The notes under the pieces are model-generated. The model was not told the DNA's origin. It made no database searches and saw only the letters and a program-made list of their open reading frames with translations. Of a stretch of 39,170 nucleotides of DNA, positions 5,646-39,170 are shown piece by piece; position 1 is the stretch's first letter, and each line of letters begins with the position of its first letter. A program made the position numbers and the translations under genes. The stretch lies in the NCBI GenBank assembly GCA_028821475.1, contig JAPPGB010000051.1, positions 1 to 39,170 on the forward strand. Reading direction: 5' to 3'. The stretch comes from Spirochaetaceae bacterium. GTDB lineage: Bacteria > Spirochaetota > Spirochaetia > SZUA-6 > Bin103.

Positions 5646-10302
<4,657 letters not shown>

Positions 10303-24824: not shown

Positions 24825-25819
24825 GCCACCGCCTCGCGCTCGAACCGGATGCGCGGGTCGACCACCACCAGCAGCAGGTCGGAGATCAGGACCCCGATCA
24901 CGCCGAGCGCGCTGACCACCATTATCAGGCTGCCGGCCAGGTACATGTCCTGCGCCTGCAACGCCCCCAGCAGCAGCGGCCCGACCGTGGGCAGTCCCAC
25001 GACGATGGCGGTGAGCGTTTCGCCCGACACGAGGGTGGGCAGCACCCCGCCGATGGTGCTGACCATCGGATTGATGGCGATGCGCAACGGGTACTTGAAC
25101 AGCAGCCGGCCTTCTTCCAGCCCCTTGGCGCGGCCGGTCAGCACGTACTGCTTGCGCAGTTCGTCGAGCAGCGCGGCGCGCATCACCCGGATCAGGCCGG
25201 CGGTGCCGGCGGTACCGATCACCACCAGCGGAATCGGCAGGTGCTTGAGGAAGTCGACAAGCTTGGCGAAGTTCCACGGCTGGAACTCGAACTCCGGCGA
25301 GAACAGGCCGCCGACGCTCCAGCCGAAGTACTTGAAGAACACGAACATCAGGATCAGTGCGAGCAGGAAGTTGGGCGTCGCCAGGCCGATGAAGCCGAAC
25401 ACGGTGAAGGCGTAGTCGGTAAACGAGTATTGATGGGTGGCGGAGTAGATGCCGATCGGGATCGCGATCGCGTAGGTGAGCACCAGCGTGAGCATCGTGA
25501 TCAGCACCGTGAGCAACAGCCGCTGGCCGATCAGTTGCGTTACCGGCTGGTTGTAGGCCAGCGAGTCGCCCATGTCACCGCGCAGCAGGTTGCTCATCCA
25601 CAGGCCGTACCGGCCGAGAAACGGCAGGTTGAGCCCGTAGCGTTCCTCCAGGCTCCTGATCTCCTCCAGGTCGACCTGCACGCCCAGGTTGCGCAGTTGC
25701 TGAATCAGGTTGTCGACGAAGTTGCCGGGCGGCAATTCGATCAGCACGAAGCTGAAGAAGGAGAGCGCCGCCAGGAGGATCACCATGTACAGGATCCTCC
25801 TGGCGATGTAGCTCAGCAT
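24821..25819 (-). CDS. Peptide/oligosaccharide ABC permease, OppB type
   Basis: Inner-membrane permease of 332 aa with the OppB pattern: N-terminal helix YIARRILYMVILLAALSFF, periplasmic loop with ERYGLNLPFLGRYGLW and GDMGDSLAYNQPV, five more helices, and the EAA-like loop around LTGRAKGLEEGRLLFKYPLR. Ends with VVVDPRIRFE, as usual for OppB. It lies 51 nt downstream of the binding-protein gene and overlaps the OppC gene by 4 nt. The gap holds a weak inverted repeat (25820-25850). Substrate not determinable; the family moves peptides, nickel or sugars. Confidence 0.93.
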   Translation of the reverse strand: MLSYIARRILYMVILLAALSFFSFVLIELPPGNFVDNLIQQLRNLGVQVDLEEIRSLEERYGLNLPFLGRYGLWMSNLLRGDMGDSLAYNQPVTQLIGQRLLLTVLITMLTLVLTYAIAIPIGIYSATHQYSFTDYAFTVFGFIGLATPNFLLALILMFVFFKYFGWSVGGLFSPEFEFQPWNFAKLVDFLKHLPIPLVVIGTAGTAGLIRVMRAALLDELRKQYVLTGRAKGLEEGRLLFKYPLRIAINPMVSTIGGVLPTLVSGETLTAIVVGLPTVGPLLLGALQAQDMYLAGSLIMVVSALGVIGVLISDLLLVVVDPRIRFEREAVA

Positions 25820-25870
25820 GGCGCCGTGGGCTGCGTCACGTGCCGGCGCCGGGCGACGCGGGGCTCCTGC

Positions 25871-27844
25871 CTACTGCCGGATGAACAGCTTGTCGGCGGA
25901 GGTAAGCAGGTCGCCCGGCCACACCGCCTCCGGCTTGTAGAAGGTCGGGTAGTTGGCGAGATGGTTCTTGTAGATGCCGAGGTTGGGCGTGACCCCCACC
26001 GATCCGATCAGGAACACCTGCTCGGCGTGCAGGTCGAACACCTTCTGGAACGCTTCGACGTACTCCGGCGACCCGTAGTCGCTGCTGCCCCAGGCGAGCA
26101 CCGCTTCGTCCAGCTCCTTGACCAGGTCGGGCGGTTCCTCGCCAGGCACCTTGCCGTCGGCGAAGTCGTCCAGGGTCTTGGCGCCGCTCTCCAGGTCGCG
26201 CATGGCGCGGATCCAGATGCCCCACTTGACGGCGTAGAAGCGGGAGTCGTACTCGGTGGCCTTGGCCGCGTCGGTGTATTCCCGGAACTCGGCCGAGCTG
26301 ATGGTGCCGGTATGGATGTTGTCGGTGCCGGCATTGTGGCGATCCCACAGGTCGCCACGGAACCGCACCTCGGTCTTCAGGCCAACCTCCTCGAAGTGCT
26401 CCTTGTACAGCTCCAGAACCGGCACGCCGGCCTCGTTGTTGTGCTCCAGGATCTGCAGGAACGCCTCGCCGTCGGGCCTGGTGCGGAACCCGTCGGCGTC
26501 GCGCTCGGTCAGGCCGAGCTCGTCGAGCAGGGCGGACGCCTGATCGGGGTCGTGCTCGGCCCAGGCCTGCTCCCACTCCGGCCTGGCCCACGGGCTGGTG
26601 GACACGATGGTGGCCGAGCGCGGCACGCCGACGCCGAAGAACACCAACTCGTTGATCTCGTCGCGGTTGATGGCCAGCGACAGGGCGCGCCGGAAACGCA
26701 CGTCGCGGTACATGCCGCGCGTGAACTCGTCCTCGTGGAACAGGTTGGGAATCAGCACGCTATGTCCCACCACCGGTGCCGCAATCTGCACTACCCGGTA
26801 CTCGCCGGATGCCTCGTTTTCCTTGTACAGGGTGAAGTTGTCGAACCGGGTGCCGAGCACCGCGAAGTCTGCCTCGCCGGCGATGATCTTGAGGTGGTAG
26901 GTCTCGGCGTCGACGATCTGCGCCTGGATGTGGTCCACGTAAGGGAGCTGGTTGCCGGCCGGGTCCACCTTCCAGTAGTAGGGGTTGCGCACGTAGCGCT
27001 TGCCGGTGTTGGTGCGCTCGGTGAGGATCCAGGGGTGGTGGGTGGGCTGCTCAAGGTCCTGCTGCGGGGCCCAGAAGAAGTGGTGGTTGAACGCCTCGTC
27101 CCAGGTGTCGAAGCCCTCTTCCTTGGCCAGCGCGCCGGCGTCGGGGTTGTGGTTGATGTGCCACTTCTTGAGGTAGTGGAACGGGTGGAAGGCCTGCCAG
27201 CCGCCGCCGGGCGGGCTGGCGTGCTTGGCGAGCAGCGCGTGGTAGGGCTCGTCGGTCTCGAACCGTACGGTGAGGTCGTCCACCTTGATCGCCCGCTTGA
27301 TCTGCGGGATCCAGTTCCAGGTGGTGACCTTGTCGTTCCAGTGCGCATCCTCGTACATGAACACGTAGTCGTCCGCGGTCATCGGGTGGCCGTCCGACCA
27401 GCGCGTGCCCTCGCGCAGGTAGAGGGTGAGACTCATGGCGTCGTTGGACATCTCCGCCCGCTTGACCAGCAGCGGCTCCAGCTCGTTGGTATCGGGATTG
27501 GCGCGGATCACGTAGCCGCCGATCTCGGTCTCGTAGCCGAGGTCGGCCCACGGGTTGATGCTGGTGTGGAACACGGTAAGCGTGCCGCCGTAGGTGCCGA
27601 TCTCGTCGCCGGCGGCGAAGTACACCACCGGCGGTTCCAGCGGCAGGCGTTCGTCGACCGGCGGCAGCTCGCCGTCCGCCACCATGGCGGCCAGCATCGG
27701 CGCCTCATTGTAGGCGCCCATCGACATGTCGGACGCCGGCTCTGCCGCGGCGGTTTCGTCGCCGGCGGCGCCCGCGGCCATGATGGTCAGTGCGGGCGCC
27801 AACAGCAACGCGCACGCAAACGGCAACGATCGGATCAAGGGCAT
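25871..27844 (-). CDS. ABC transporter substrate-binding protein, family 5
   Basis: Periplasmic solute-binding protein of 657 aa, the first gene of this importer. Signal peptide (SLPFACALLLAPALTIMAA, about 6-24) followed by an Ala/Glu-rich linker. The family-5 core shows GGTLTVFHTSINPWADLGY, TLYLREGTRWSDGHPMTADD and later RFRRALSLAINRDEINELVF, all diagnostic of SBP_bac_5. It is ~100 residues longer than E. coli OppA/DppA and Trp/His-rich in the middle, as in the long bacterial subfamily. ATG 27844 has a textbook AAGGAGA 5 nt upstream. Ligand unknown. Promoter candidate at 27956-27984. Confidence 0.93.
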   Translation of the reverse strand: MPLIRSLPFACALLLAPALTIMAAGAAGDETAAAEPASDMSMGAYNEAPMLAAMVADGELPPVDERLPLEPPVVYFAAGDEIGTYGGTLTVFHTSINPWADLGYETEIGGYVIRANPDTNELEPLLVKRAEMSNDAMSLTLYLREGTRWSDGHPMTADDYVFMYEDAHWNDKVTTWNWIPQIKRAIKVDDLTVRFETDEPYHALLAKHASPPGGGWQAFHPFHYLKKWHINHNPDAGALAKEEGFDTWDEAFNHHFFWAPQQDLEQPTHHPWILTERTNTGKRYVRNPYYWKVDPAGNQLPYVDHIQAQIVDAETYHLKIIAGEADFAVLGTRFDNFTLYKENEASGEYRVVQIAAPVVGHSVLIPNLFHEDEFTRGMYRDVRFRRALSLAINRDEINELVFFGVGVPRSATIVSTSPWARPEWEQAWAEHDPDQASALLDELGLTERDADGFRTRPDGEAFLQILEHNNEAGVPVLELYKEHFEEVGLKTEVRFRGDLWDRHNAGTDNIHTGTISSAEFREYTDAAKATEYDSRFYAVKWGIWIRAMRDLESGAKTLDDFADGKVPGEEPPDLVKELDEAVLAWGSSDYGSPEYVEAFQKVFDLHAEQVFLIGSVGVTPNLGIYKNHLANYPTFYKPEAVWPGDLLTSADKLFIRQ

Positions 27845-27955
27845 GGTGATCTCCTTTGGTCGGACTGGACTGAACCAGCAACCGGCCATGCATCTCGGCA
27901 GCTACCTTGCGGACCGCGCTTCGGTACCGCAGCTTCGGCTACCGGGCAGGTGCGA

Positions 27956-28037: not shown

Positions 28038-28613
28038 CTATCGGTCGAATGCGGACTTGGCGGATGGGAGATCGAACTGATCCGGTTTCCAGTCGCCGAT
28101 CCACTCGGCGGTCTCGCCGGAGTCGTCGCCCCAGGGATCGGTACCGGTCTCCACGAATTCGGCCATCCGATAGTGCCCGCCGATGCCGCCGCAGTCCTCG
28201 ATTGGGGCAGCGAGGCTGCCAGCCACCAGACGTCTCTCGAATCGTTCGCGGCTCGGTACCCGTTGCCGCAGCTTCACGTGGTGGACCCAGTCGTCTCCGT
28301 AATCGTACACGTAGCGGCAGGCGGTCCCCACGCGCTTGAAGTGCGTTGTCAGCGGTACCCTCCACGCATCCGGACGGTCGCCGGAGTCCCACATTCCCAT
28401 GTCGTCATCCGGCACGCTGGCCAACAACCGCTGGGTGCGGCGGCTGCGGGCGGCCGTGCGGAAGTCCCACAGGTGGTCCCCGTTCCACTCGAAGCTGTCC
28501 CGTATCGCCAGGTGCAGGTCGCCGAAGGTACCAGTGGCGTCGAGCAGAAAACGGCGCGAGATAGGTGGGTCGGTATCGACGAGAGAGACTTCAAACTCGA
28601 AGTAGATTGGCAT
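28038..28613 (-). CDS. pRiA4b ORF-3-like protein
   Basis: Cytoplasmic protein of 191 aa resembling the plasmid pRiA4b ORF-3 family (PF07929): FEVSLVDTDPPISRRFLL, a TFGDLHLAIRDSFEWNGDHLW core, YDYGDDWVHHVKL and the EDCGG signature of the family. The family is common in bacteria, archaea and plasmids, and its molecular function is not known. Its ATG at 28613 lies 9 nt after the MtaB stop, so it may be translated from the same message. Some members were first annotated as recombinase-like, without proof. Short, complete, no signal peptide. Confidence 0.85.
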   Translation of the reverse strand: MPIYFEFEVSLVDTDPPISRRFLLDATGTFGDLHLAIRDSFEWNGDHLWDFRTAARSRRTQRLLASVPDDDMGMWDSGDRPDAWRVPLTTHFKRVGTACRYVYDYGDDWVHHVKLRQRVPSRERFERRLVAGSLAAPIEDCGGIGGHYRMAEFVETGTDPWGDDSGETAEWIGDWKPDQFDLPSAKSAFDR

Positions 28614-28622
28614 CGCTGCAGC

Positions 28623-30086
28623 CTACCTGCAAACCCGGCGCTCGTCCGGTGCCGCCCCGGGACGCGGCGGCACCGGCCACGCGTCGTCCGGGCGGGCGGC
28701 GAGGCGGTCGTCGGGGAGGCGCCCGGTGACGGTGACCGGGTACCATTCGCCGGGTTGGGGCCGGCGACCGGTGGCCGGGAAGCGAATGCGCAGGTAGGAC
28801 TCGCCGTAGCCGGTGGCGAGGGCGCCGTCGACCTGCTCGACCAGGACCTGCTGGCGGTGGCCGGTGAGGCGCTGAGCCATCCGGCGCCGGCCGGCGGCGG
28901 CCAGCGCGCGGACCGCGGCGCTGCGCTCGGCCTTGACCGGTTCCGGCACCGCGCCCGTCAGGCGCGCGGCGCGGGTCCCCGCGCGCGGCGAGTAGCGGAA
29001 GGTGTGGATGTGCCCGAAGTCGACCGCCTCACACACCTCCATGGTATGGGCGAAGTCGCCGGCGGTTTCGCCGGGGAAGCCGACCATGACGTCGGTGGTG
29101 AAGTGGGCCGGCACGCCGCGCCGCCGCCAGACGGTACGGATGCGGTCGACGAGGTCGAGGTAGCCGTCCACGTCGTACTCGCGGCGCATGCGCAGCAGGA
29201 TGCGGTCGGAGCCGCTCTGCAGGCACAGGTGCAGGTGCGGACACAGGCGCTCATGGCCGGTCAACTCGACGAAACGGTGGTCGAGCGGGTCGGGCTCCAG
29301 CGAGGAGACGCGCACCCGGTAGTCGCCGGGGAGGTCGAGCATCTGCTCGAGCAGGCGGCTGAAGCTCCACTCGTCCCAGCGGTAGCGACCGATGTTGACG
29401 CCGGTGAGCACCAGCTCGCGGTGGCCTTCGTCGAGCAGGCGGCGTGCCTCGTCGAGGATGTCGGGAGCGGGCCGGCTGCGTGCCCGCCCGCGCACCGCGG
29501 GGATGATGCAGAAGGTGCAGAAGTTGTCGCAGCCGTCCTGGATCTTGATGGTGGCGCGGGTGTGCAGCGGCTGCGCGCCGGGCCGGTAGCCGAACGGGTC
29601 CGCCGGCAGCGCCGCCGCGTCGGCCACCTCGCCCGCCAGGTGGGCCGCCACCAAGTCGAAGATTGCGCTCTTGCGGTCGTTGTCCACGGCGTAGTCGACG
29701 CCCGGCAGGTCGCATGCCACTCCGCCCTGCGCGGTCACGTAGCAGCCGGTGGCCACCACCAGGGGCCGCGCGGCGTGCCGGTCGCGGGCGTGCGGTGAGG
29801 CGGTCGTCGCGGTGTGCGGCGCCGCCCCCGCGTGCCGCGGCGACCTCGTGCGCGCGCCGGAACTCCCGCCTGAGCGCCCGCCGCGGCGGACGGCTCGGTA
29901 CAGCGCGTGGCGCGACTTGCGGTCGGCCTGGCCGGTGACCGTGCAGGTGTTGACCACCACCACGTCGGCCGGCTCGGCGGCATCCACGACCCGGTACCCG
30001 GCCGCGGCGAAGCGCGCCGCCAGTGCATCGCTCTCGGCGATGTTGAGCCGGCAGCCGAGGTTGGTAAAGGCGATGGCGGGAGCCAT
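28623..30086 (-). CDS. mtaB: tRNA methylthiotransferase MtaB
   Basis: Radical-SAM enzyme (487 aa) that adds a methylthio group to t6A37 of ANN-decoding tRNAs, giving ms2t6A. The UPF0004 domain supplies cluster cysteines C12 (NLGCRLN), C48 (VVNTCTVTG) and C115 (ATGCYVT). The radical-SAM motif is C186-x3-C190-x2-C193 (DGCDNFCTFC), followed by LTGVNIGRY and LHLCLQSGSD; a TRAM-like end follows. Assigned to MtaB rather than MiaB by NLGCRLN and the LTGVNIG motif. A Gly/Ser/Arg/His-rich insertion (about 67-107) lies between the second and third cysteines and is not usual. ATG 30086 matches the family start; 31 nt separate it from the aminotransferase gene. Confidence 0.9.
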   Translation of the reverse strand: MAPAIAFTNLGCRLNIAESDALAARFAAAGYRVVDAAEPADVVVVNTCTVTGQADRKSRHALYRAVRRGGRSGGSSGARTRSPRHAGAAPHTATTASPHARDRHAARPLVVATGCYVTAQGGVACDLPGVDYAVDNDRKSAIFDLVAAHLAGEVADAAALPADPFGYRPGAQPLHTRATIKIQDGCDNFCTFCIIPAVRGRARSRPAPDILDEARRLLDEGHRELVLTGVNIGRYRWDEWSFSRLLEQMLDLPGDYRVRVSSLEPDPLDHRFVELTGHERLCPHLHLCLQSGSDRILLRMRREYDVDGYLDLVDRIRTVWRRRGVPAHFTTDVMVGFPGETAGDFAHTMEVCEAVDFGHIHTFRYSPRAGTRAARLTGAVPEPVKAERSAAVRALAAAGRRRMAQRLTGHRQQVLVEQVDGALATGYGESYLRIRFPATGRRPQPGEWYPVTVTGRLPDDRLAARPDDAWPVPPRPGAAPDERRVCR

Positions 30087-30117
30087 GACGCGCGGCGGCG
30101 GGGTCAGAGCGCCGCGG

Positions 30118-31365
30118 TCAGGCGCTGCGGCCGGCCAGTGCCGGCTCACGGCCCTCCTGCACGTAGTGGCCGAAGAAGTGGCCGATTCTGGCGGTCACGT
30201 CAGCGAGCTGGTCGGCGTGCGGCAGAAACACCATGCGGAAGTGGTCGGGGCGGATCCAGTTGAATGCCGTGCCCTGCACCACGAGCACCTTCTCCTGCTC
30301 CAGGAGGTCGAGCACCATGCGCTCGTCGTCCACCACTCCGAAGCGGCGGGCGTCGATCTTCGGAAACAGGTAGAACGCGCCCTGCGGCCTGGTGCAGGAG
30401 ATGCCGGGAATGGCGTTGATCGCCTCGTACAGCGTATCGCGCTGCACTGCCAGGCGGCCGCCCGGCGCGGTGAGCTGATTGATGCTCTGAACGCCGTCGA
30501 GCGACGTCCGGATGGCGAGTTGCGCCGGCATGTTGGCGCACAGCCGCATCGCCGACAGGATACCGAGGCCCTCGATGTAGCCGCGCGCCCGGTGCTTGGC
30601 GCCGCTGAGCATCAGCCAGCCGGAGCGGAAGCCGGGAATGCGGTAGGTCTTGGAGAGCCCGTTGAAGGTGCCGATGAGAATGTCGTCGGCGAGCGTTGCC
30701 AGCGGCGTGTGCCGTACGCCGTCGTAGAGGATCTTGTCGTAGATCTCGTCGGCAAACAGGACGAGCTGGTGCTCGCGGGCGAGCGCCACGATGCGCTCCA
30801 GGCAGTCGCGCGGATATACCGCCCCGGTCGGATTGTTGGGGTTGATCACCACGATCGCCCTGGTGCGGGAGTTGATCTTGGCGGCGATGTCGGCGATGTC
30901 CGGGGTCCAGTCGGACTCCTCGTCGCACAGGTAGTGTACCGGGCGGCCGCCGGCCAGGTTCGCCGCCGCGGTCCACAACGGGTAGTCGGGTGTGGGAATG
31001 AGCACCTCGTCGCCGTCGTTGAGCAGCCCCTGCAGGGACATGGTGATCAGCTCGCTGACCCCGTTGCCAAGATAGATATCTTCGATCTGCACGCGCGGTA
31101 CGCCGAGGCACTGGTAGTGCTGCATGATCGCTTGGCGCGCACACAACAGTCCCTGCGAGTCGCCGTAGCCCTGCCCCTCGGCGATGTTCATCACCACGTC
31201 GCGCAGGATTTCCTCGGGCGCCTCGAAGCCCCACTTGGCCGGATCCCCGATGTTCAGCTTCGCGACGCGGAACCCCTCATCCTCCAGGCGCCGCGCCGCG
31301 GCCAGCACGGGACCGCGAATGTCGTAGCACACGTGTTCGAGCTTGTCGGACTTCCTGATCTGCAT
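30118..31365 (-). CDS. AlaA-like PLP-dependent aminotransferase
   Basis: Class I/II aminotransferase of 415 aa, close to AlaA/YfbQ, which makes alanine from pyruvate and glutamate. Shown by: LNIGDPAKWGFEAPEEILRD near the N-terminus (AlaA-type), INPNNPTGAVYP, FADEIYDKILYDG and the PLP lysine K239 in FNGLSKTYRIPGFRSGW; arginine near the C-terminus in HFRMVFLP should bind the alpha-carboxylate. ATG 31365 has AAGGAT 7 nt upstream. It probably starts the operon with mtaB. With gltBD in the window this would use glutamate as amino donor, but the exact substrate is inferred. Confidence 0.92.
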   Translation of the reverse strand: MQIRKSDKLEHVCYDIRGPVLAAARRLEDEGFRVAKLNIGDPAKWGFEAPEEILRDVVMNIAEGQGYGDSQGLLCARQAIMQHYQCLGVPRVQIEDIYLGNGVSELITMSLQGLLNDGDEVLIPTPDYPLWTAAANLAGGRPVHYLCDEESDWTPDIADIAAKINSRTRAIVVINPNNPTGAVYPRDCLERIVALAREHQLVLFADEIYDKILYDGVRHTPLATLADDILIGTFNGLSKTYRIPGFRSGWLMLSGAKHRARGYIEGLGILSAMRLCANMPAQLAIRTSLDGVQSINQLTAPGGRLAVQRDTLYEAINAIPGISCTRPQGAFYLFPKIDARRFGVVDDERMVLDLLEQEKVLVVQGTAFNWIRPDHFRMVFLPHADQLADVTARIGHFFGHYVQEGREPALAGRSA

Positions 31366-31417
31366 AGTTCGGATCCTTATCCCGGTGCGAGAAGGGCAAA
31401 TGATACCGCTTTGCGCC

Positions 31418-31431
31418 CCGTCGGGGCTACC
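31418..31431. repeat. 14-bp direct repeat, hicBA left boundary
   Basis: CCGTCGGGGCTACC, identical to 32033-32046. The two copies flank the hicBA pair about 615 bp apart. The remaining 31366-31492 gap shows nothing else convincing. Confidence 0.75.
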
Positions 31432-31492
31432 AATCCGGAGTCTGGTGCGACAGTTAACCAGTCGCCCAGTCGGCCCTCCCGGCGTCGAGGTA

Positions 31493-31714
31493 TCAGCGTT
31501 GCGCGAGGAACTCTTCTACGGTCAAGCCGGCTTTCGCGATCAAGCTGCGCAGCGTTCCGCGTGCAACCTGCCGATGGTTCGGTATCGACAGCGTGGCAAT
31601 GTGACCCGGCTTGGTCATGATGATGTGGCTACCGCGTTGTCGTGCCACCTGCCAACCGAGCGATCGAAACGTTCGTACCACCTCGCGCGGAGTGAGGAGG
31701 GGAACGGTCGCCAT
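31493..31714 (-). CDS. hicA: HicA-type mRNA interferase toxin
   Basis: Toxin of 73 aa, YcfA/HicA family with a double-stranded-RNA-binding-like fold. Catalytic H30 is in the signature RQRGSHIIM, and the downstream HRQVARGTLRSLIAKAGL and end VEEFLAQR are characteristic. HicA cleaves mRNA on ribosomes or free. ATG 31714 overlaps the hicB stop by one base (TGATG), with antitoxin first. No defects, so the system should be active. Confidence 0.92.
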   Translation of the reverse strand: MATVPLLTPREVVRTFRSLGWQVARQRGSHIIMTKPGHIATLSIPNHRQVARGTLRSLIAKAGLTVEEFLAQR

Positions 31715-31920
31715 CAGACATGCACTTCAACGTGCCGGGTCTCTACCGTCAGAGGTAGCCCTTGCTCCGCACGCACCGCGAGGCATTCCTTGATCGCCTC
31801 CCGCACGTTCGCCTGCGCCTCTTCCTCCGTAGTCCCCTGGCTGACACAACCGGGGATCGCCGGACACTCGGCGACGTAGGCGCCGTCTTCGTCCCGTGTA
31901 ATGGTAATCAGGAGCTTCAT
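31714..31920 (-). CDS. hicB: HicB-type antitoxin
   Basis: Antitoxin of 68 aa with the partial RNase H-like HicB fold: MKLLITITRDEDGAYVAECP, IPGCVSQGTTEEEAQANVRE and AIKECLAVRAEQG. It lacks a C-terminal DNA-binding domain, so it is a short HicB; autoregulation would need another factor or HicA binding. Start ATG 31920 matches the family N-terminus. GAGG about 12 nt upstream is a weak ribosome binding site. The hicBA pair sits between the aminotransferase and GH117 genes, on the same strand as both. Confidence 0.92.
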   Translation of the reverse strand: MKLLITITRDEDGAYVAECPAIPGCVSQGTTEEEAQANVREAIKECLAVRAEQGLPLTVETRHVEVHV

Positions 31921-31938
31921 GTGTGCAGCCTCGCGGAC

Positions 31939-31967
31939 ACTATACGGTGCATGGAAACGTCTGACCA
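31939..31967 (-). promoter_or_regulatory. Candidate promoter for hicBA
   Basis: On the minus strand: TGGTCA, 17-nt spacer, TATAGT, about 20 nt before the hicB ATG. Inferred start near 31932 gives a very short leader of ~12 nt. Confidence 0.45.
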
Positions 31968-32032
31968 CATAGCTCGGCTGCTCGACGATGAATTCGTCAC
32001 CGGGCGCCGACTTCAATGGTGGCGCGTCCCCG

Positions 32033-32046
32033 CCGTCGGGGCTACC
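32033..32046. repeat. 14-bp direct repeat, hicBA right boundary
   Basis: Second copy of CCGTCGGGGCTACC, one base short of the GH117 stop codon at 32048-32050. See 31418-31431. Confidence 0.75.
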
Positions 32047-32047
32047 G

Positions 32048-33205
32048 TCAGGCGCCGGCGCCGGTCAGGAAGGAGCGCTCTTCGGGGGATAGGGGAAAGG
32101 CGAGATACTGCTCCGCGGTGTACTGGCGGGCGCCCTTGAAGCCGGGCCGTTCGAGGTCGCGGCTCAGGCTGCAGTCGAAGCGCAGCAACCGCGAGCGGTA
32201 CCGCTCCTTGTAGCTCGACCGCACGAAGCAGAGGCCCCACAGGATGCCGCGACCGTCGCCGTTGTTTGCGAGCAGGTCGGGGATGTAGGGGCCGCCGGCG
32301 TGCGGAGGAATGTCGACGATTGCCTTGAGCTGGAAGTTGAGGCCGTCCGGCGCGTACTGCACGGTATTGCCCTCGTTGCCGTTGCGGATTTGCAGCGACG
32401 CGATCCCCTCCCGGTAGGGCCACAGCATGGTTTCGTGACCCGAGTTGAGCACCGGGTTGCCTTCATACTTGGTGAACGGCCCCTCCGGCGTGTCGGCGAT
32501 CGCCACCCCCTGCGCCAGGTACATCGTGTCCGGCGACTTGAAACGCACCGGGTGCCCCTTGTAGTAGAGGTGGATCCGGTTGCGGTAGATCAGCGGGTAC
32601 GGGTCGTGGATCGAGTTGCCGTCCCAACTGTCGCGCGGCCCGAGCGGTATCAGCTCCCGGTCGAGCAGCTCGAACGGCCCCTCCGGGTGGTCTGCCACCC
32701 CGACGCTGACCGGGCAGGAGTCGTTGCGGATCAGGTCGCTGTACACCTGCACGAACAGGTAGTAGCGGCCGTTCCATGGCAGCACGTCGGGCGTCGACAG
32801 CGACCGGCAGCCGAACTGTCCCGGCTTGGAACGCCGCAATGCCGGCCCCTTCTCTTCCCACGCGAACCCGTCGCGCGAGGTCGCCACGTAGATGTCGGCG
32901 AGATCCCAGTCGGTGGATGCGTGCGTGTCGTCGTCCTCGCCTGCCGCGACGATGTCGTTGCCGGTGCGGCGGCAGGTGTAATACACGTAGTACCGGTCGC
33001 CGACCTTGATCACCTTGGAGGGGTCGCGGCGCGATACGAAGCCGTCGTCCGGGAAGCCGGCAAGCTCGCTGTACCGGAACCGGCTGTAGTACTCGTTGTC
33101 ATACTCGGCGGTGCTGTCCCACAGGTCGTACTGCCGGTGCATGGCTGCACTGAGCTTGGTCCCTGTGGGCTTGTTCGCCGGCAGGCGGGCGGGAAAATAG
33201 TCCAT
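32048..33205 (-). CDS. GH117-family glycoside hydrolase
   Basis: Five-bladed beta-propeller glycosidase of 385 aa resembling GH117, which includes 3,6-anhydro-alpha-L-galactosidases acting on agar oligosaccharides and a galactofuranosidase activity. Family-type residues: Asp in SRRDPSKVIKVGDRYYVYYT (expected general base), HDPYPLIYRNRIHLYYKG, and His-Glu in NSGHETMLWPYREG (expected acid and neighbour), then NTVQYAPDGLNF. No signal peptide, so it probably acts on imported sugars. Start ATG 33205 has GGAGG 10 nt upstream. It is the last gene of the operon after the DUF4352-like lipoprotein, and a second homologue is at 37857. The substrate is inferred. Confidence 0.83.
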   Translation of the reverse strand: MDYFPARLPANKPTGTKLSAAMHRQYDLWDSTAEYDNEYYSRFRYSELAGFPDDGFVSRRDPSKVIKVGDRYYVYYTCRRTGNDIVAAGEDDDTHASTDWDLADIYVATSRDGFAWEEKGPALRRSKPGQFGCRSLSTPDVLPWNGRYYLFVQVYSDLIRNDSCPVSVGVADHPEGPFELLDRELIPLGPRDSWDGNSIHDPYPLIYRNRIHLYYKGHPVRFKSPDTMYLAQGVAIADTPEGPFTKYEGNPVLNSGHETMLWPYREGIASLQIRNGNEGNTVQYAPDGLNFQLKAIVDIPPHAGGPYIPDLLANNGDGRGILWGLCFVRSSYKERYRSRLLRFDCSLSRDLERPGFKGARQYTAEQYLAFPLSPEERSFLTGAGA

Positions 33206-33234
33206 TGGCTTATCGCCTCCGTGTGGTCCGGTGA

Positions 33235-33852
33235 TCACTCGAGCGCCCACTCGGCGAGGGTCGGGCGCGGGAACACGCGGCCCATGTAGCGGACGGTCAG
33301 CCCGGCGGCGTCCTTCGGGACCACGTACATGATCTCGCCGCGCACCTTCTCGCCCTTGTCGAGGTGGGGTGCGAGGACGAGCGCGTTCTCGCCGAAGTAC
33401 GGAGCGTAGGAGTACTGGTTGTCGGCGCCGTCGGTTACCGTGAACTGGCCGCGCAGGGCGAGTTGGTTGCCGTTGGTTCCGAGCGACCAGGCGCCGAGCG
33501 ACTCGAATTCGATATCGACGATCAGGAACGCGTCCTCGGGGTCCGCCTCCTTGGTGGCGGTTGCCTCGGTGCCCTTGTCGAAGTAGTCGTAGCTGGTGAT
33601 GGCGCTGGAACCGAGCACGGTCACCATGAAGGCATCGGTGGAGTAGGGTTCCCCGACCGCCAGGCGCGGATGGTCGGACGATTCGGCGCCATCGTCAGCC
33701 GCCGCGGCCGGGGCCGCACCGGCCGTTTCAGCCGCGGCCGCCGGCTCGCCGGAAGCGGCGGCGCCGCCGTCATCGGACTCCCCGTCGCCGCACGCCGCCA
33801 GCAAGATGACCGCCGCCAGCGCCCCTTGCAACAGCCGCAGCCGCACGGTCAT
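33235..33852 (-). CDS. DUF4352-like lipoprotein
   Basis: Exported lipoprotein of 205 aa. Signal peptide LRLLQGALAAVILLAAC with lipobox LAAC (C21), then an Ala/Gly/Glu linker (about 25-62) and a beta-sandwich with AFLIVDIEFESLG and VPKDAAGLTVRY. This pattern is that of DUF4352 proteins, small surface lipoproteins of unknown role. ATG 33852 is preceded by GAGG at proper distance, while ATG 33858 is too close to it. It lies between the binding protein and GH117 genes, so it may belong to the uptake or surface part of this system. Confidence 0.8.
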   Translation of the reverse strand: MTVRLRLLQGALAAVILLAACGDGESDDGGAAASGEPAAAAETAGAAPAAAADDGAESSDHPRLAVGEPYSTDAFMVTVLGSSAITSYDYFDKGTEATATKEADPEDAFLIVDIEFESLGAWSLGTNGNQLALRGQFTVTDGADNQYSYAPYFGENALVLAPHLDKGEKVRGEIMYVVPKDAAGLTVRYMGRVFPRPTLAEWALE

Positions 33853-33882
33853 GCCCATCCTCGTTGCATCGCGTTCACCCCA

Positions 33883-33922
33883 CGCGGCGGGTGGCCGGAA
33901 GGCATACCCGGCCACCGCCGCG
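33883..33922. repeat. Strong intercistronic hairpin after the binding-protein gene
   Basis: Two 15-bp arms (33883-33898 with one bulged G; 33908-33922) and a 9-nt loop. In the minus-strand message it comes just after the binding-protein stop (33952). No T-run follows, so it is more likely an RNA-stabilising or partial-termination element than a terminator. Confidence 0.8.
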
Positions 33923-33951
33923 ATTTTGAATGCTGAGTTGTCGGACCGGCT

Positions 33952-35694
33952 CTAGTAGCCCATCTCCTGCTTCAGATTCTGGTCGATCCAGACGCCGGCT
34001 TCAACCATACTGCTTGAGCGGTACGTCGTCGACGACTCGCCGTAGTAGTTCTTCACCCACGGCCACCAGTAGGTCAGCTCGTATTGAATGCCGATCGGCA
34101 CGTAGGCCGTTGCCTCGGCCACGATCTGCGCCAGTTGCGCCCACTTCTTGTTGCGCTCCTCCAGGTCCAGGGTCGCGCTGGTTTCCACGAACAGCGGATC
34201 GTAGTAGGTAGGATCGGTCCAGATGGCATCGTTCCACCCACCGGCGAAGTTGATCGAGTGCTTGTTGAAGGCGCCCACCTCGCGCTGGTTCTGCAGGGTC
34301 GAACGGATCACGTGGTAGTTCCTCTCGCGGCGTTCGGTCTGGTAGGCCAACTGCTCCAGCGCGTTGATCTCCAGGTCGACCCCGATGGCCTCCCAGTAGC
34401 TCTTGGCCAACTCCAGGATGGCGACGCTGGTGGAGTCCGCGGAACGCACGATGGTGTTCAGCTTGAAGCCTTCCGGGTAGCCCGCCTCGGCCAGGATCTC
34501 CTTGGCTCGATCCGGGTGGTACTCGTAGACCGCCCGAATCTCCGGCTCCATCTGGTCGGGCGGAATGTGGCCCGGGTAGCCTTCGATCATGGGGAAGATT
34601 CCCTCGGTTTGCGCCTCCAGCAGCACCGTTTCGGCGATCTGCCCGGCGTCGAGCGCCATCGACAGGGCGTGCCTGAGGCGCTGGTTGCTGAGCGGCTCGA
34701 TGTCGCTGCGCAGACCGAGCGCGTGGGTGCCGGAACTGAGGTAGCGGAACTTCTCCAGGTCGGGTGCGGTCTGGGCAAGTGACTGCTCCTCCTTCACCGG
34801 CATCCAGTAGTAGACGTCCAGCTTGGCAGTACGCAGGGCCGCCACGCGGGTGGAGTGATCCTTGATGATCACGTAGATCAGATCGTCGATGAACGGCGTC
34901 TCGTACTCCACGCCGTCGATCACGGTCGGACTGGCCCAGTAGTCGTCGTGGCGGTCGTAGCGCATGAACGATCCCTCGACGTATTCGGCGAACCGGAACG
35001 GGCCGGTGCCGGCCTGGTGCTCCCACTCACCGGCGCCCGCCTCGACCACCTCGGGAGCGTAGATGGCGTTGGGGTTGGCGGATGTCCACACCACCCACTC
35101 CAGGTCGAAGCGGCTGAGCTCCACCACCACCGTGTACTTGTCCTGGGCGACGATGTTGTCGATGGCGCCGCCGTCCCAGGTCCACGCCGTCGGCCTGGAG
35201 TTCCAGGCGCGCGCGAGCGCGAACGCCACGTCTTCGGCAACCAGCTCGCGCGGCTCGAAGCCGATGCTGTCGTTGCCCTGCCACATCACGCCCTGGCGGA
35301 GGTGGAACACGATCTTGTCCTCGTGCACCTCCCAGCTCTCGGCCAACGCACCCGTCCAGCACTGCTCCGGCGTCAGGTAGATGCCCGGATAGGTGCTCGG
35401 AAAGACGCCCGACCCGCGCGGCCCGCAGGTCTGGTAGTCGGTCATCAGCAGGTAGTCCATGATCGGACCGCTGTATATCATTGCAGGCGCCCTGCCCACG
35501 GTCGAGGTCTGGTCGGCCTGCACCGGTTCCAGGTCGGTCCGGAACGCGGTCAACGTGCCGCCGTGCCACGGGCCGTCGCCGGCTGCCGCCGCCGCTTCTT
35601 CCTCGCCGGTGGCGAACGCCGGTACGCTCACCAGCGCGATCGTTACGTACAGCAGCCATCGCACGACGGCCGCTCCTGCGAACTTCCTTCGCAT
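33952..35694 (-). CDS. ABC transporter substrate-binding protein, family 5
   Basis: Periplasmic solute-binding protein of 580 aa. Signal peptide (VVRWLLYVTIALVSVPAFA, about 10-28) then an acidic, Ala-rich linker. Family-5 features: GGTLTAFRTDLEPVQADQ, VFHLRQGVMWQGNDSIGFE, GTGPFRFAEYVEGSFMRYDR and LRHALSMALDAGQIAETVL. ATG 35694 has GGAGG 7 nt upstream. It lies in the GH117 operon, between the OppC-type permease and the DUF4352 gene. Family 5 includes binders of oligosaccharides as well as peptides; with two GH117 enzymes around, an oligosaccharide ligand is likely, but this is inference. Hairpins at 33883-33922 and 35742-35762 bracket the gene. Confidence 0.93.
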   Translation of the reverse strand: MRRKFAGAAVVRWLLYVTIALVSVPAFATGEEEAAAAAGDGPWHGGTLTAFRTDLEPVQADQTSTVGRAPAMIYSGPIMDYLLMTDYQTCGPRGSGVFPSTYPGIYLTPEQCWTGALAESWEVHEDKIVFHLRQGVMWQGNDSIGFEPRELVAEDVAFALARAWNSRPTAWTWDGGAIDNIVAQDKYTVVVELSRFDLEWVVWTSANPNAIYAPEVVEAGAGEWEHQAGTGPFRFAEYVEGSFMRYDRHDDYWASPTVIDGVEYETPFIDDLIYVIIKDHSTRVAALRTAKLDVYYWMPVKEEQSLAQTAPDLEKFRYLSSGTHALGLRSDIEPLSNQRLRHALSMALDAGQIAETVLLEAQTEGIFPMIEGYPGHIPPDQMEPEIRAVYEYHPDRAKEILAEAGYPEGFKLNTIVRSADSTSVAILELAKSYWEAIGVDLEINALEQLAYQTERRERNYHVIRSTLQNQREVGAFNKHSINFAGGWNDAIWTDPTYYDPLFVETSATLDLEERNKKWAQLAQIVAEATAYVPIGIQYELTYWWPWVKNYYGESSTTYRSSSMVEAGVWIDQNLKQEMGY

Positions 35695-35741
35695 GTAGTC
35701 CTCCTTCGTCGAGCTCCCGCTCGCGAATTGTCGTTGGTGGT

Positions 35742-35762
35742 CGGTCCACCCTTCGTGGACCG
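35742..35762. repeat. Hairpin between permease and binding-protein genes
   Basis: Perfect 8-bp arms (CGGTCCAC/GTGGACCG) with a 5-nt loop, about 48 nt before the binding-protein ATG. Without a T-run, it is probably an mRNA processing or stability element. Confidence 0.6.
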
Positions 35763-35780
35763 TCAGCAAAGATGCCATCT

Positions 35781-36785
35781 TCAGTCTCCCGCCGTCGGCG
35801 CGGCGACCGCACGTGCACGCCCCTCGCCTGCGGTCGCGGTCGTGCGGCGCGGTGCCAGGTGCGCTCGCACGCCGTAGCGGCCGCTGCCGCCGCGCAGCCG
35901 CGGATCGAGGATGTCGCGCACGGCATCCCCGAGCATGTTCACGCCGTACACGACCACGCTCAGCGCGACGCCGGGCCAGATCGCGATCCACGGTGCGGTG
36001 AGCATGTGCTCCCGGCCGGGACCGCTGAGCATGCCGCCCCAGCTCGGCGCCGGCGGCGGCACGCCGTAGCCGAGGAAGCTCAGGCTCGCCTCGGTGAGGA
36101 TGATGCCCGGCACCCGCGTGCTGAAGTTGATGATCAGGGGCGCGACGATGTGCGGCAGTATGTGCCGGACCAGAATCTGCGTGGTCCGACAGCCGGTGGC
36201 GATGGCGGCGTCCACGTAGACGTTGCTCTTGATCGACAGCACCGCGCCGCGGATGATGCGCGACCCGTTGATGCCCCAGCGCAAGCCCAGCACGATAATG
36301 ATCGTGGCCATGCCCGGACCCACCAGCGACATCACCACTACCAGCAGCACGATGCCGGGAAAACCCATGACGGCGTCCACGAAACGCTGCAGTATCAGGT
36401 CGAACTTGCGGCCGAGGTAGCCGCTCGACATGCCCAGCACCAGTTCCACGATCGACGACACCACCGAAGCGGCCAAGCCCACGATCATGGAAATGCGGGC
36501 GCCGTAGATCACGCGGCTGAGCATGTCGCGCCCAATGTGGTCGGTACCGAGCCAGAACCGCGCCGACGGCGGCGACTTGGCAAGCTCGGGGAACACTTCA
36601 TTGTAGCCGTACGGGGCGAGCAGGTCGGCGAACAGACCGGTGATCAGGAGCGCCACCGTCACCACCGCCCCCAGCGCACCGAGCGGCTTCTCGGTGAACA
36701 GGCGCCTCGCCGAGTCGACCCACAGGGACCGCCTTCGCGGCGCCTCCAGGTTGGCGACGTTCAGTTGCTCGGGGGCGCCGCTCAT
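35781..36785 (-). CDS. Oligosaccharide/peptide ABC permease, OppC type
   Basis: Inner-membrane permease of 334 aa. N-terminal cytoplasmic RRRSLWVDSARRLFTEKPL, first TM helix (LGALGAVVTVALLITGLFA), LGTDHIGRDMLSRVIYGAR, then the permease core and the EAA-like loop AAIATGCRTTQILVRHILPH. The 30-residue tail after GDAVRDILDPRLRGG is Arg/Ala/Thr-rich and unusually long. ATG 36785 overlaps the OppB gene's stop (ATGA). No ATPase gene nearby. Confidence 0.93.
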   Translation of the reverse strand: MSGAPEQLNVANLEAPRRRSLWVDSARRLFTEKPLGALGAVVTVALLITGLFADLLAPYGYNEVFPELAKSPPSARFWLGTDHIGRDMLSRVIYGARISMIVGLAASVVSSIVELVLGMSSGYLGRKFDLILQRFVDAVMGFPGIVLLVVVMSLVGPGMATIIIVLGLRWGINGSRIIRGAVLSIKSNVYVDAAIATGCRTTQILVRHILPHIVAPLIINFSTRVPGIILTEASLSFLGYGVPPPAPSWGGMLSGPGREHMLTAPWIAIWPGVALSVVVYGVNMLGDAVRDILDPRLRGGSGRYGVRAHLAPRRTTATAGEGRARAVAAPTAGD

Positions 36786-37786
36786 CGGTAGTGGATCCTT
36801 GGATCCAGCCACGCGTACACCAGGTCGACGCCGAGGTTGATCGCCATGATGCCGGCTGCGACCAGCAGCATCAGTCCGCTCACCGTGGCGTAGTCGCGCT
36901 TGGCGATGGCGTCGAGGATGAGTTGCCCCATGCCGGGCAGGCCGAATATGTTCTCGATGATGACGGTGCCGCCGATCAGCAGCGGCAGCAACAGGCCGAT
37001 TTGCGTGACGACCGGAATGAACGCGTTCTTGAGTGCGTGGCGCATCACGATGAGCCGCTCGCGCAAGCCCTTGGACCACGCCGTCCTGATGTAGTCCTGG
37101 CGCAGCACCTCCAGCATCATGGTGCGCGTCATGCGCATCGTCATGCCGGACAAGCCCATGCCCAGCACGATGGCGGGCAGAATGAACATCTGCAGGTTGC
37201 CGAGAGGGTCCTGGCCGAACCGGATCAGCATGATCGGCGGGGTGTAGCCCCACCAGATCGACGGCAGCACCACCACCAGGGTGGCGATCCAGAAGTTGGG
37301 CACCGCAATCAGGGCGAAGGCGAAGCTGCGCGCAAGGTAGTCGCCGATGGTGTCCTGGCGTAGCGCCGAGTAGATGCCGATCGGCAGCGAGATGAGCTGA
37401 CTGACCACCAGCGCCATCAGGCCCAGTTCCAGGGTCACCGGCCAGCGCGGCGCAATGCGCGCCAGCACCGGCTTCTTGGACCACAGCGAGAGGCCGAAGT
37501 CGCCCTGCAGGATGCCGCTGATCCTACCGTCGGGTTGCGGCAGGATACCCAGCCAGCGGCCATACTGGATTGGAGCGGGGACATCGAGCCCGAGCTCCTC
37601 CTCGATGAATGCCCGGGTGGCTGCGATGGCGGCCTCGCTTGTGCCACGGTTCTGCAGATCCTCGATGATGTTGTCGATCACGTCCCCGGGCATCAGGCGG
37701 ATCAGCAGAAACACCACGATCGTGGCGATGAACAACGTCGGGATCATGGACCAGAGCCGGCGGATGATATAGGCACTCAACTCCAA
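36782..37786 (-). CDS. Oligosaccharide/peptide ABC permease, OppB type
   Basis: Inner-membrane permease of 334 aa: N-terminal helix WSMIPTLFIATIVVFLLIRL, MPGDV, a loop with DFGLSLWSKKPV, the permease core and the EAA-like loop around RTAWSKGLRERLIVMRHALK; ends VDLVYAWLDPRIHYR, as in OppB. The first codon I can support is TTG 37786, with GAGG 4 nt upstream; no ATG gives a complete first helix. First gene of the operon, directly after a near-consensus promoter (37809-37837). Confidence 0.9.
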   Translation of the reverse strand: MELSAYIIRRLWSMIPTLFIATIVVFLLIRLMPGDVIDNIIEDLQNRGTSEAAIAATRAFIEEELGLDVPAPIQYGRWLGILPQPDGRISGILQGDFGLSLWSKKPVLARIAPRWPVTLELGLMALVVSQLISLPIGIYSALRQDTIGDYLARSFAFALIAVPNFWIATLVVVLPSIWWGYTPPIMLIRFGQDPLGNLQMFILPAIVLGMGLSGMTMRMTRTMMLEVLRQDYIRTAWSKGLRERLIVMRHALKNAFIPVVTQIGLLLPLLIGGTVIIENIFGLPGMGQLILDAIAKRDYATVSGLMLLVAAGIMAINLGVDLVYAWLDPRIHYR

Positions 37787-37808
37787 CGAGCCTCACACGG
37801 ACGGGTTG

Positions 37809-37837
37809 ACTATAGCCGCCCGTCTGCGGATTGTCAA
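37809..37837 (-). promoter_or_regulatory. Near-consensus sigma70 promoter for the GH117-transport operon
   Basis: On the minus strand: TTGACA (perfect), 17-nt spacer, TATAGT (5 of 6). The start near 37802 gives a ~16-nt leader before the TTG. The -35 lies inside one copy of the repeated TGTTGACAAT element. The best promoter in the window. Confidence 0.75.
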
Positions 37838-37862
37838 CAATCGGCTGTAAACATTGTCAACA
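37830..37862 (-). promoter_or_regulatory. Putative operator: repeated TGTTGACAAT
   Basis: Two identical 10-bp copies of TGTTGACAAT (minus strand), at 37830-37839 and 37853-37862, spaced 23 bp (about two helical turns). The downstream copy covers the -35 box; the upstream one contains the GH117 stop codon (37857-37859). Around the upstream copy, TGTTGAC-AAT-GTTTACA forms an imperfect palindrome, similar in type to LacI/GntR operators. A repressor acting here is inference. Confidence 0.5.
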
Positions 37863-39092
37863 GTCAGTTGTGAACACGGGATGGTCCGGCGGCGCAGGCA
37901 GGTAGGCGGCCGCGGGGAAGCGGTAGTTCCACGCCCGGAAGAAGCCCGCTCGGCGCACGCGGCGGCTCAGGTTGCACTCGAAGCGGACCAGGTGGCTGTT
38001 GGGCAGCGTGCCGGCCGGACCGTGGTGGAGGTGGGCCAGTCCCCAGGTGATGCCCTCGCCGTCGCGGGTATCGGTGAACGCGTCGGGCACGTAGGGGCCG
38101 GCCGCCACCGGCGGCGCCGACACCTTGCCGGCCACCTCGAAGTTGAGCCCGTCCGCGGCGTACTGCACCGTGTTCTTCTCCGGGCCCTCCAGACTGGTGA
38201 TGGCGACCACTCCCGCGCGGTAGGGGTAGAGGAACGTCTCGTGACCGCTGTTGGTGACCGGGTTGAGCGGGCTGCGCTCGAACGGCCCCTCGGGGCGGTC
38301 GGCGATCGCCACTCCCCACTGGCAGCCCAGGTCGTGGCGGTAGTGGCGGCCGAACGGAACGCCCTTGTAGTAGAGCCAGATGCGGCCGCCGCGCACCAGC
38401 AGGTAGGGGTCGTGCAGCTTGTGGCTGTCCCAGGCGCCGAACCGGATCACCGCGTCCGGGTCATCGCTGCCCGGCGCCAGTTCGGGCGCCGGCGCGCCGG
38501 GACGCAGCACCGGTTCCGGCCAGCGCCGCCACGGCCCGTCGGGCGAGTCGGCGTGCGCCATTCCGATCTGGTAGAGCGAGCGTTCGCGGTAAGGGCCCTG
38601 CAGCACCTGGTAGTAGAGGTAGTAGCGGCCCTTCCAGACCAGGATGTCCGGGGTCAGCACCGAGCGATCGTCGAACGCCCCGCGCGGGCCGCGCGCCACC
38701 GCCCGGCCGCGCTCCTCCCAGGCGTGGCCGTCGGCGCTGGTGGCGTACCACAGCTCGCCCAGGTCCCAGTCCCACACCGGTATGGAATCGGTGGCGCCGG
38801 CGAAGCCCGCGGGGGCCGGCGACTGGCGGCGGGTGTACCATACGTAGTAGGTGCCGCCGACCCGGATCACCTTGCTCGGATCGCGCCGGCTCACGCCGTG
38901 CTGTTTGCCGACGCCGCTCACCGGCGCGTACTTGAAGGCGGAGAAGAACTCGCTGCCCTGGTCCTTGGCGGGGCCGTATATCTCGTGCACCCGGCGGGTT
39001 GCGGCGCTCACCAGGACGCCCCGCCTGGCCGCCGCATCCGGATCATCGGCAGCCGGCGGCGGCAGTGGGTCCGGGCGCGGGTCGTGTCCCAC
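37857..39092 (-). CDS. GH117-family glycoside hydrolase, second copy
   Basis: Second GH117-like beta-propeller enzyme (411 aa from GTG 39092; the frame stays open to the window edge, so the true start may be outside). Alternative start GTG 39011 would give 384 aa, close to the other copy, and the 27 residues before it are Pro/Asp-rich. The expected residues are present: SRRDPSKVIRVGGTYYVWYT, HDPYLLVRGGRIWLYYKG, NSGHETFLYPYRAGV, NTVQYAADGLNF. It differs from the copy at 32048 in an added ~20-residue loop near PEPVLRPGAPAPELAPG. No signal peptide visible. Its TGA overlaps the putative operator of the following operon. Confidence 0.78.
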   Translation of the reverse strand: MGHDPRPDPLPPPAADDPDAAARRGVLVSAATRRVHEIYGPAKDQGSEFFSAFKYAPVSGVGKQHGVSRRDPSKVIRVGGTYYVWYTRRQSPAPAGFAGATDSIPVWDWDLGELWYATSADGHAWEERGRAVARGPRGAFDDRSVLTPDILVWKGRYYLYYQVLQGPYRERSLYQIGMAHADSPDGPWRRWPEPVLRPGAPAPELAPGSDDPDAVIRFGAWDSHKLHDPYLLVRGGRIWLYYKGVPFGRHYRHDLGCQWGVAIADRPEGPFERSPLNPVTNSGHETFLYPYRAGVVAITSLEGPEKNTVQYAADGLNFEVAGKVSAPPVAAGPYVPDAFTDTRDGEGITWGLAHLHHGPAGTLPNSHLVRFECNLSRRVRRAGFFRAWNYRFPAAAYLPAPPDHPVFTTDC

Positions 39093-39170
39093 CGCGGGCC
39101 GCGGTATGCCCGGCCGCGAGCGTTCCGTGCCGCCGGCACCCTCGGCGGCGCGCGCAGCAGCGGCCGCGGC

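Follow-up and report, generated by a model that had tools for sequence, protein, structure and literature searches.

What does a spirochaete do with two GH117 glycosidases on either side of an oligopeptide-type (Opp) importer, and which sugar would such a set of genes serve? The question is raised by the end of contig C51 (JAPPGB010000051.1) in the draft genome of a Spirochaetaceae bacterium (GCA_028821475.1; 5.73 Mb in 183 contigs); the window analysed here is this whole contig, 39,170 bases. The reading that we moderately favour is that the end of C51 and the end of a second contig, C70, form one locus importing and catabolising oligosaccharides with terminal 3,6-anhydro-L-galactose, as in agar- or porphyran-like galactans. 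The most interesting feature is a tandem GH117 fusion, seen as a single frame in the nearest relatives of the locus, with a fixed Asp/Glu difference between its halves. Between 39170, the end of C51, and 32048 the following genes are found in order of transcription, with PDB matches from phmmer.

37857..39170, minus strand: GH117 a, frame open to the contig end; PDB 4u6d (6e-89) and 4ak5 (4e-84)
36782..37786, minus strand: OppB-type permease, TTG start; PF00528 (2e-34), NCBIfam Opp2B (6e-85, below that family's cut-off)
35781..36785, minus strand: OppC-type permease, likely start ATG 36785; PF00528 (4e-24), PF12911
33952..35694, minus strand: family-5 solute-binding protein, likely start ATG 35694; PF00496 (8e-60), Sec-type signal by eye
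33235..33858, minus strand: DUF4352 lipoprotein; PF11611 (5e-7), lipobox LAAC near the N-terminus by eye
32048..33205, minus strand: GH117 b, likely start ATG 33205, GTG 33250 also possible; PDB 4u6d (2e-103)

The listed OppC open reading frame reaching 37484 is over-extended. With the likely starts, the intergenic distances from a to b are 70 bases, a 4-base overlap (OppB/OppC), 86, 93 and 29 bases, and because of the common strand and this tight spacing (29-93 bases or a 4-base overlap) the stretch reads as one operon. The genes next to it (aminotransferase, MtaB, PRiA4_ORF3) look unrelated. At the end of C70 lie two further GH117 genes, c (minus strand) and d (plus strand, its frame still open where the contig ends); further inward come genes for a GntR/FCD regulator, an enolase-superfamily protein and a short-chain dehydrogenase/reductase (SDR).

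Both window enzymes are genuine GH117 members. As the initial annotation had it, they flank the importer genes and the lipoprotein gene on the same strand (frames 32048-33250 and 37857-39092). Their best GH43 matches in PDB lie far behind 4u6d, at only 2e-6 for b and 0.01 for a; d matches 4u6b (3e-88), and c is 53-54% identical to b and a. Pfam labels a and b as GH43 only, a above the cut-off (40 bits) and b slightly under it (31.5 vs 32.2). The AlphaFold2 model of b (pLDDT 88, pTM 0.87) has the five-bladed GH117-type propeller fold. Zg3615 is its closest match (VIA Z score 49.8); the range over the nine listed GH117 entries is 39.8-49.8, and the best entry outside the family has 25.6. No signal peptide is seen by eye in the GH117 proteins.

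GH117 a most likely represents the C-terminal part of a protein with two GH117 domains in tandem, so that the GTG at 39092 is probably internal and not a start, and d is likely the N-terminal half belonging to it. In a tree of 108 rows, which holds part only of the similar Chloroflexota loci (SH-aLRT support, midpoint root), d clusters with the N-halves of fused relatives (support 99) and a with their C-halves (support 92), the C-half of L050 falling outside. In the spirochaete genome the two halves lie on two contig ends. As d runs out at the end of C70 and a sets in with the same orientation at the end of C51, an assembly break inside one gene is the simplest explanation; we infer from this both the C51-C70 joint and the fusion in this genome. 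Both contig ends hold an Ala-codon-rich stretch without stops. The repeated TATACACAT...GAGCCCACG at the end of C70 (L009 10862-10933) resembles what we take to be a leftover transposase adapter, presumably an assembly artefact.

The fusion itself is observed directly in the relatives. A named genome collection held 277 candidate stretches encoding a relative, of which the best 80 were kept, giving 75 related loci. The nearest 30 (L020-L049) are Chloroflexota, with 62-68% identity to a over the best segment, and in 30/30 d-then-a is a single frame of 824-890 residues with two GH117 domains. Of the 35 Chloroflexota loci (L020-L053 and L076), 34 have a two-domain GH117 frame, that of L052 being 5'-truncated; the gene is missing only from L076, which is a contig of 3.9 kb. 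Over all 75 loci the number is 38. In an AlphaFold2 model of one fusion, the C-half has a Z score of 41.0 to GH117. The tandem frame of L053 (9620-12337, plus strand) has a low-scoring C-half, perhaps through frameshift or decay. Two-domain GH117 frames with other domain types are found in L068, L073, L074 and L078 (Planctomycetota, Akkermansiaceae and a proteobacterium), so that the fusion would have arisen more than once. Directly adjacent single-domain GH117 genes form pairs in L081, L083, L085, L086 and L088, and fused or adjacent pairs span Planctomycetota, Verrucomicrobiota, Kiritimatiellota and a proteobacterium. Gly167 is present in the second member in L074 and in the five adjacent pairs, and not in L068, L073 and L078.

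The halves differ consistently in their active sites. Residues were read, in BpGH117 numbering, from a 170-row alignment that includes five solved references and is made up of domains of at least 300 residues (the N-half fragment of L052 thus falling out). Roles of Asp90, Asp245, Lys260, His302 and Glu303 are described in the available text of PMC11574756, with Asp90 as general base and His302 as general acid. All five, including the catalytic Asp90, His302 and Glu303, are kept in all four spirochaete domains, which are placed in GH117 by sequence and, for b, by the model too. The initial annotation therefore withstands its refuting test, although b lacks the Asp that pairs with His302. At position 167 the three agar-active references carry Glu; a, b and c have Asp there, and d has Gly. 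The Asp that pairs with the acid His302, at position 320, is kept in c and d and replaced by Glu in a (D90 D167 D245 K260 H302 E303 E320) and by Asn in b. In the 30 nearest loci, positions 90/167/245/260/302/303/320 read D D D K H E D in 30/30 N-halves and D D D K H E E in 30/30 C-halves. More widely, position 320 is not constant: outside L020-L049, 17 of 75 domains lack Asp there.

Of 70 alignment columns with at least 95% conservation, the single-domain copy b deviates in 3 (including His371, replaced by Phe), c in 1 and d in 4, and a matches them all; b also has the longest branch of the tree (2.06). In our view b is diverging and its activity uncertain; by the same conserved-column measure d also appears somewhat altered. 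The long branches, among them b and the C-halves of L053 and L050, have unsure places in the tree. With the midpoint root, a and d share a side with the agar-active clade, and c and b are on the other side.

A difference of this kind may matter because of the way in which GH117 active sites are built. According to the parts of the papers available, solved GH117 dimers swap their N-terminal helices and the dimer is needed for a complete site (PMC11574756; PMC5849685); in Bacteroides GH117B, His392 (H392) of the partner chain enters the +1 subsite (PMC5849685). Characterised GH117 enzymes are described there as single-domain and mostly dimeric, with one monomeric member (PMC9728383). Since the active site needs a partner subunit, fusing two diverged copies would fix an unequal pair, and the fusion plausibly locks such a pair together: the tandem protein would be a built-in dimer, with Glu taking the place of Asp next to the catalytic His in its C-terminal site. 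The model of the L024 fusion (pLDDT 70, pTM 0.59, poor N-terminal helices) is too weak to bear on the dimer. More tentatively, the uncultured Chloroflexota and the spirochaete might share an obligate unequal dimer within an Opp-based system for uptake and catabolism of sulfated anhydrogalactans, each site being completed by the other half, the C-terminal one with His/Glu and not His/Asp, and the two sites taking different substrates, for example sulfated and unsulfated ends; this extended proposal we regard as possible and rather doubtful.

The evidence on the substrate comes mainly from C70. The enolase-superfamily protein has its best PDB matches in 2ovl, a putative racemase (8e-111), and in two 3,6-anhydro-alpha-L-galactonate cycloisomerase entries, 5xd7 (7e-99) and 5xd9 (7e-98), the next match being at 2e-59. 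For SCO3480 of Streptomyces coelicolor, the available text lists the active-site residues Lys164, Lys166, Asp195, Glu221, Glu247, Asp270, His297 and Glu307 (PMC9706016). Seven of the eight are matched in the spirochaete protein in an alignment by eye, in which Glu307 was not placed. Entry 2ovl is probably SCO3480 itself, because seven listed residue types coincide, again by eye, at a constant offset of 2. The C70 protein is thus a 3,6-anhydro-L-galactonate cycloisomerase homologue with that activity predicted. In NCBIfam its best match is talarate/galactarate dehydratase, at 253 bits against a 500-bit cut-off.

Gene order around the fusion is conserved in the relatives. By tblastn (1e-15), the 30 nearest loci have the cycloisomerase homologue in 22, OppB in 24, OppC in 25 and GntR in 26; in seven of the eight loci without the cycloisomerase the fetched sequence stops short of its expected place, the exception being L048. 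A separate c-type GH117 frame is found in 26/30; of the other four, L025, L029 and L044 begin within about 2 kb of the fusion, and L048 is without the frame across 8.7 kb. Three oxidoreductases are also encoded in L020 and L024: a zinc-dependent alcohol dehydrogenase (Zn-ADH; homologues in 27 other loci), an SDR (27) and a GMC oxidoreductase (30); the SDR is KduD-like (304 bits against a cut-off of 339, from Pfam and NCBIfam run on the L020 copies). Stretches of relatives that were fetched beyond the cycloisomerase gene show a binding protein and one or two further GH117 genes. In two long stretches, L128 and L129, a sulfatase, an alpha-agarase homologue and OppD/F are added (L128 proteins being assigned by Pfam and PDB, those of L129 as their homologues); in the third, L131, neither sulfatase nor alpha-agarase homologue was found in the part read, and L130 ends within the binding-protein gene. 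The alpha-agarase homologue of L128 matches part of PDB 9m0b (1e-35, residues 19-595). The extra GH117 domains of L128, L129 and L131 cluster with the agar-active references (support 91). As an observation on its own, the L128 frame (7643-9433, plus strand) encodes a 596-residue protein that has no Pfam match and in which no signal peptide is apparent by eye; it might be an alpha-agarase-like enzyme of the cytoplasm.

Anhydrogalactose, one of the options that the initial annotation had offered, is hence the rather probable substrate, being favoured by the cycloisomerase homologue in the linked half of the locus and by the alpha-agarase homologue that two of the related loci carry; nothing favours the other option, galactofuranose, at which no test was aimed. 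Zg3615, to which b is structurally closest, was solved with beta-3,6-anhydro-L-galactose. Since the binding protein has a signal and the GH117 proteins have none, oligosaccharides would enter whole and be trimmed inside. In the pathway that we propose, the PepT/Opp-type binding protein and permeases would carry short oligosaccharides into the cytoplasm, powered by ATPases encoded elsewhere; GH117 c, the tandem d-a and possibly b would cleave off the non-reducing anhydrogalactose; a dehydrogenase, either unlinked or not yet recognised, would oxidise it to anhydrogalactonate; and the cycloisomerase would open the ring to give 2-keto-3-deoxygalactonate. The GntR/FCD protein would control the locus. 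The ADH and the KduD-like SDR of the relatives would suit a 5-oxidoreduction branch, a route described for Paraglaciecola hydrolytica and Pseudoalteromonas atlantica in the available part of PMC5943477.

A number of observations weigh against this reading. None of the four spirochaete domains falls inside the agar-active clade of BpGH117 and ZgAhgA, which includes BuGH117B, so that the comparison with characterised GH117 enzymes that the initial annotation had called for bears out the family and not a place in that clade; position 167, too, is Asp or Gly and never Glu. No anhydrogalactose aldehyde dehydrogenase (ALDH) of a known type is linked to the locus. The genome has four ALDH matches, three of them full-length and the fourth partial, and the full-length proteins look like enzymes for other substrates, none being convincing: the first resembles methylmalonate-semialdehyde dehydrogenase, the second is nearest to lactaldehyde dehydrogenase (NCBIfam) or succinate-semialdehyde dehydrogenase (PDB), and the third is betaine-aldehyde-like. 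The spirochaete SDR is about 30% identical to that of the relatives and was matched in 10/30 loci. Further enzymes, which the initial annotation had proposed to look for upstream of 39170, could be sought there only by way of C70: this gave the two GH117 domains c and d, and no GH16 was found in the 5.73-Mb genome (GH50 and GH86 were not searched for). An alpha-agarase homologue was not found in the spirochaete genome in a search without positive control. As to the joint, C51 and C70 share no exact end-to-end overlap of 10-200 bases, the end sequence exceeds 80% GC and the tail of d is without clear coding phase; open frames at the contig ends are weak evidence at such a GC content. The C-half of L053 lacks Lys260, His302 and Glu303 and has a low domain score and odd composition, perhaps through a frameshift. 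Finally, keeping the best of 277 stretches makes the locus counts lean to near relatives.

Several of these points would fit the same gene architecture acting on another sugar, which is the alternative that survives best, although we consider it fairly unlikely. In that case sulfated galactans would be the source from which GH117 frees another sugar, sulfated or of L-galactose type; sugar dehydrogenases (the SDR here and, in the relatives, Zn-ADH, SDR and GMC) would supply the sugar lactone or aldonate on which the enolase-superfamily enzyme works. It is in line with the lack of a linked anhydrogalactose dehydrogenase, with the conservation of oxidoreductases in the relatives, with the 65 sulfatase (PF00884) matches of the genome, some of them partial, beside the absence of GH16, with a position 167 that differs from agar-active GH117, and with the talarate/galactarate dehydratase match, which itself is far under its cut-off. 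Against it stand the PDB entries closest to the enolase protein, namely an anhydrogalactonate cycloisomerase and 2ovl, the putative racemase; Zg3615, which has Asp167 and nevertheless binds anhydrogalactose; and the alpha-agarase homologue in two related loci. Apart from this question, the 65 sulfatase matches mark a genome strongly geared to sulfated compounds.

The importer raises a second alternative, namely that the Opp set is a peptide or general importer merely lying between GH117 genes and that the sugars reach the enzymes by other systems. The operon holds OppB, OppC and a family-5 binding protein of the Opp/Dpp (PepT) type, and these genes and the DUF4352 lipoprotein stand as first described; the completeness then claimed for the uptake set does not, since there is no ATPase gene beside the permeases and binding protein. 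No OppD/F ATPase was found among the nine proteins scanned (28038-39092), the rest of the genome not having been searched for ATPases. The 5.73-Mb genome has at least 122 OppB-like matches at 1e-30, a lower bound given that 150 of 253 candidates were scored, and by a rough estimate a given gene has a chance of about 1% or slightly more that an OppB-like gene starts on its strand no more than 500 bases away. Opp importers being so common, the GH117-Opp pairing alone is weak evidence of a functional link. The Opp proteins of the relatives' loci belong to another subfamily than those of the window (27-36% identity), which also suits a general importer. The tight one-strand spacing with a GH117 gene at each end and the Opp set kept in Chloroflexota GH117 loci argue the other way, and we hold this alternative for improbable.

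A second Opp-type set lies in the same window (23676-27889, minus strand), with a binding protein (25871-27889, PF00496), OppB (24821-25819) and an OppC-like frame. It was considered as the ortholog of the relatives' importer on account of 52-58% OppB/OppC identity and was rejected, its OppB ranking only 23rd among the genome's own 122 matches to the OppB of the relatives. The pairing of GH117 with an importer had been taken as a different uptake strategy. SCO3482-3484 of S. coelicolor, which we take to be a sugar-type importer unlike the Opp type here, offer a precedent for it. Its two permeases and binding protein, proposed for neoagarobiose, are encoded beside the GH117 gene SCO3481 according to the available text of PMC4848846.

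That d and a are separate genes in the spirochaete, or C51 and C70 not neighbours, so that the window would hold an Opp operon between two ordinary GH117 genes, has in its favour contig ends that are not joined by reads and lack an exact overlap and the adapter-like end of C70, and it is made quite improbable by the stop-free Ala-codon-rich frames at both ends, by d-then-a forming one frame in every one of the 30 nearest relatives and by the opposite halves with which d and a cluster in the tree.

The system is a variant of known GH117/anhydrogalactose loci. The agar cluster SCO3471-SCO3487 of S. coelicolor has, besides its importer, a GH117 (DagC, SCO3481) and a cycloisomerase (SCO3480), as given in the parts of PMC9706016 and PMC4848846 available. 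It differs in having its own secreted beta-agarases DagA and DagB (PMC10624881, in part) and its own ALDH-type anhydrogalactose dehydrogenase, SCO3486, and the available portions of its descriptions do not mention a tandem-fused GH117. Zg3615 and Zg3597 of Zobellia galactanivorans (4u6d and 4u6b), the closest solved structures of b, have the pattern D90 D167 D245 K260 H302 E303 D320, from which b and a differ at 320 and d at 167; they are single-domain chains deposited as a periplasmic protein and a lipoprotein. BpGH117/PpGH117 and Bacteroides GH117B share the Asp90 base, the His302 acid, Glu303 and a partner that completes the +1 subsite, whereas they belong to the Glu167 clade, form homodimers without fusion and lie in SusC/D-type loci, as far as the available text of PMC11574756 and PMC5849685 goes. 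The P. hydrolytica/P. atlantica pathway likewise has a cycloisomerase followed by 5-oxidoreduction, for which the KduD-like SDR and Zn-ADH of the relatives would be counterparts; it differs in that, by the available part of PMC5943477, the anhydrogalactose dehydrogenase gene is in the same cluster, and none is linked here.

The locus is not a general trait of the spirochaete's group, as the GH117 b protein was matched in only 5 of 61 neighbourhood genomes, its own included; outside its own genome the best match, at 39% identity, is in one of two same-genus genomes. Other features near these genes are a PRiA4_ORF3-like protein (28038-28613, minus strand; PF07929, 4e-36), whose gene adjoins that of an MtaB-type methylthiotransferase, a small frame judged by eye to resemble a HicB-type antitoxin (31714-32016, minus strand) and, on C70 near the GH117 genes, an Eco57I-type restriction-modification methylase (L009 944-4183, minus strand; PF07669).

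What is new is a GH117 whose tandem fusion is conserved, whose two halves differ in a consistent way and whose locus also holds Opp and cycloisomerase genes. Among the literature matches listed for GH117 with galactofuranosidase, sponge and fusion/tandem, no title concerns a tandem-fused GH117; titles only were compared, which is weak evidence of absence. From their bin names we take the Chloroflexota to originate from sponges or corals, which the record titles do not state. Sponge Chloroflexota are described as carbohydrate degraders in the available text of PMC6306507. The halves that differ at the acid dyad in 30/30 nearest relatives are a natural experiment on the need of GH117 for a partner subunit, and the locus points to anhydrogalactan use by uncultured Chloroflexota.

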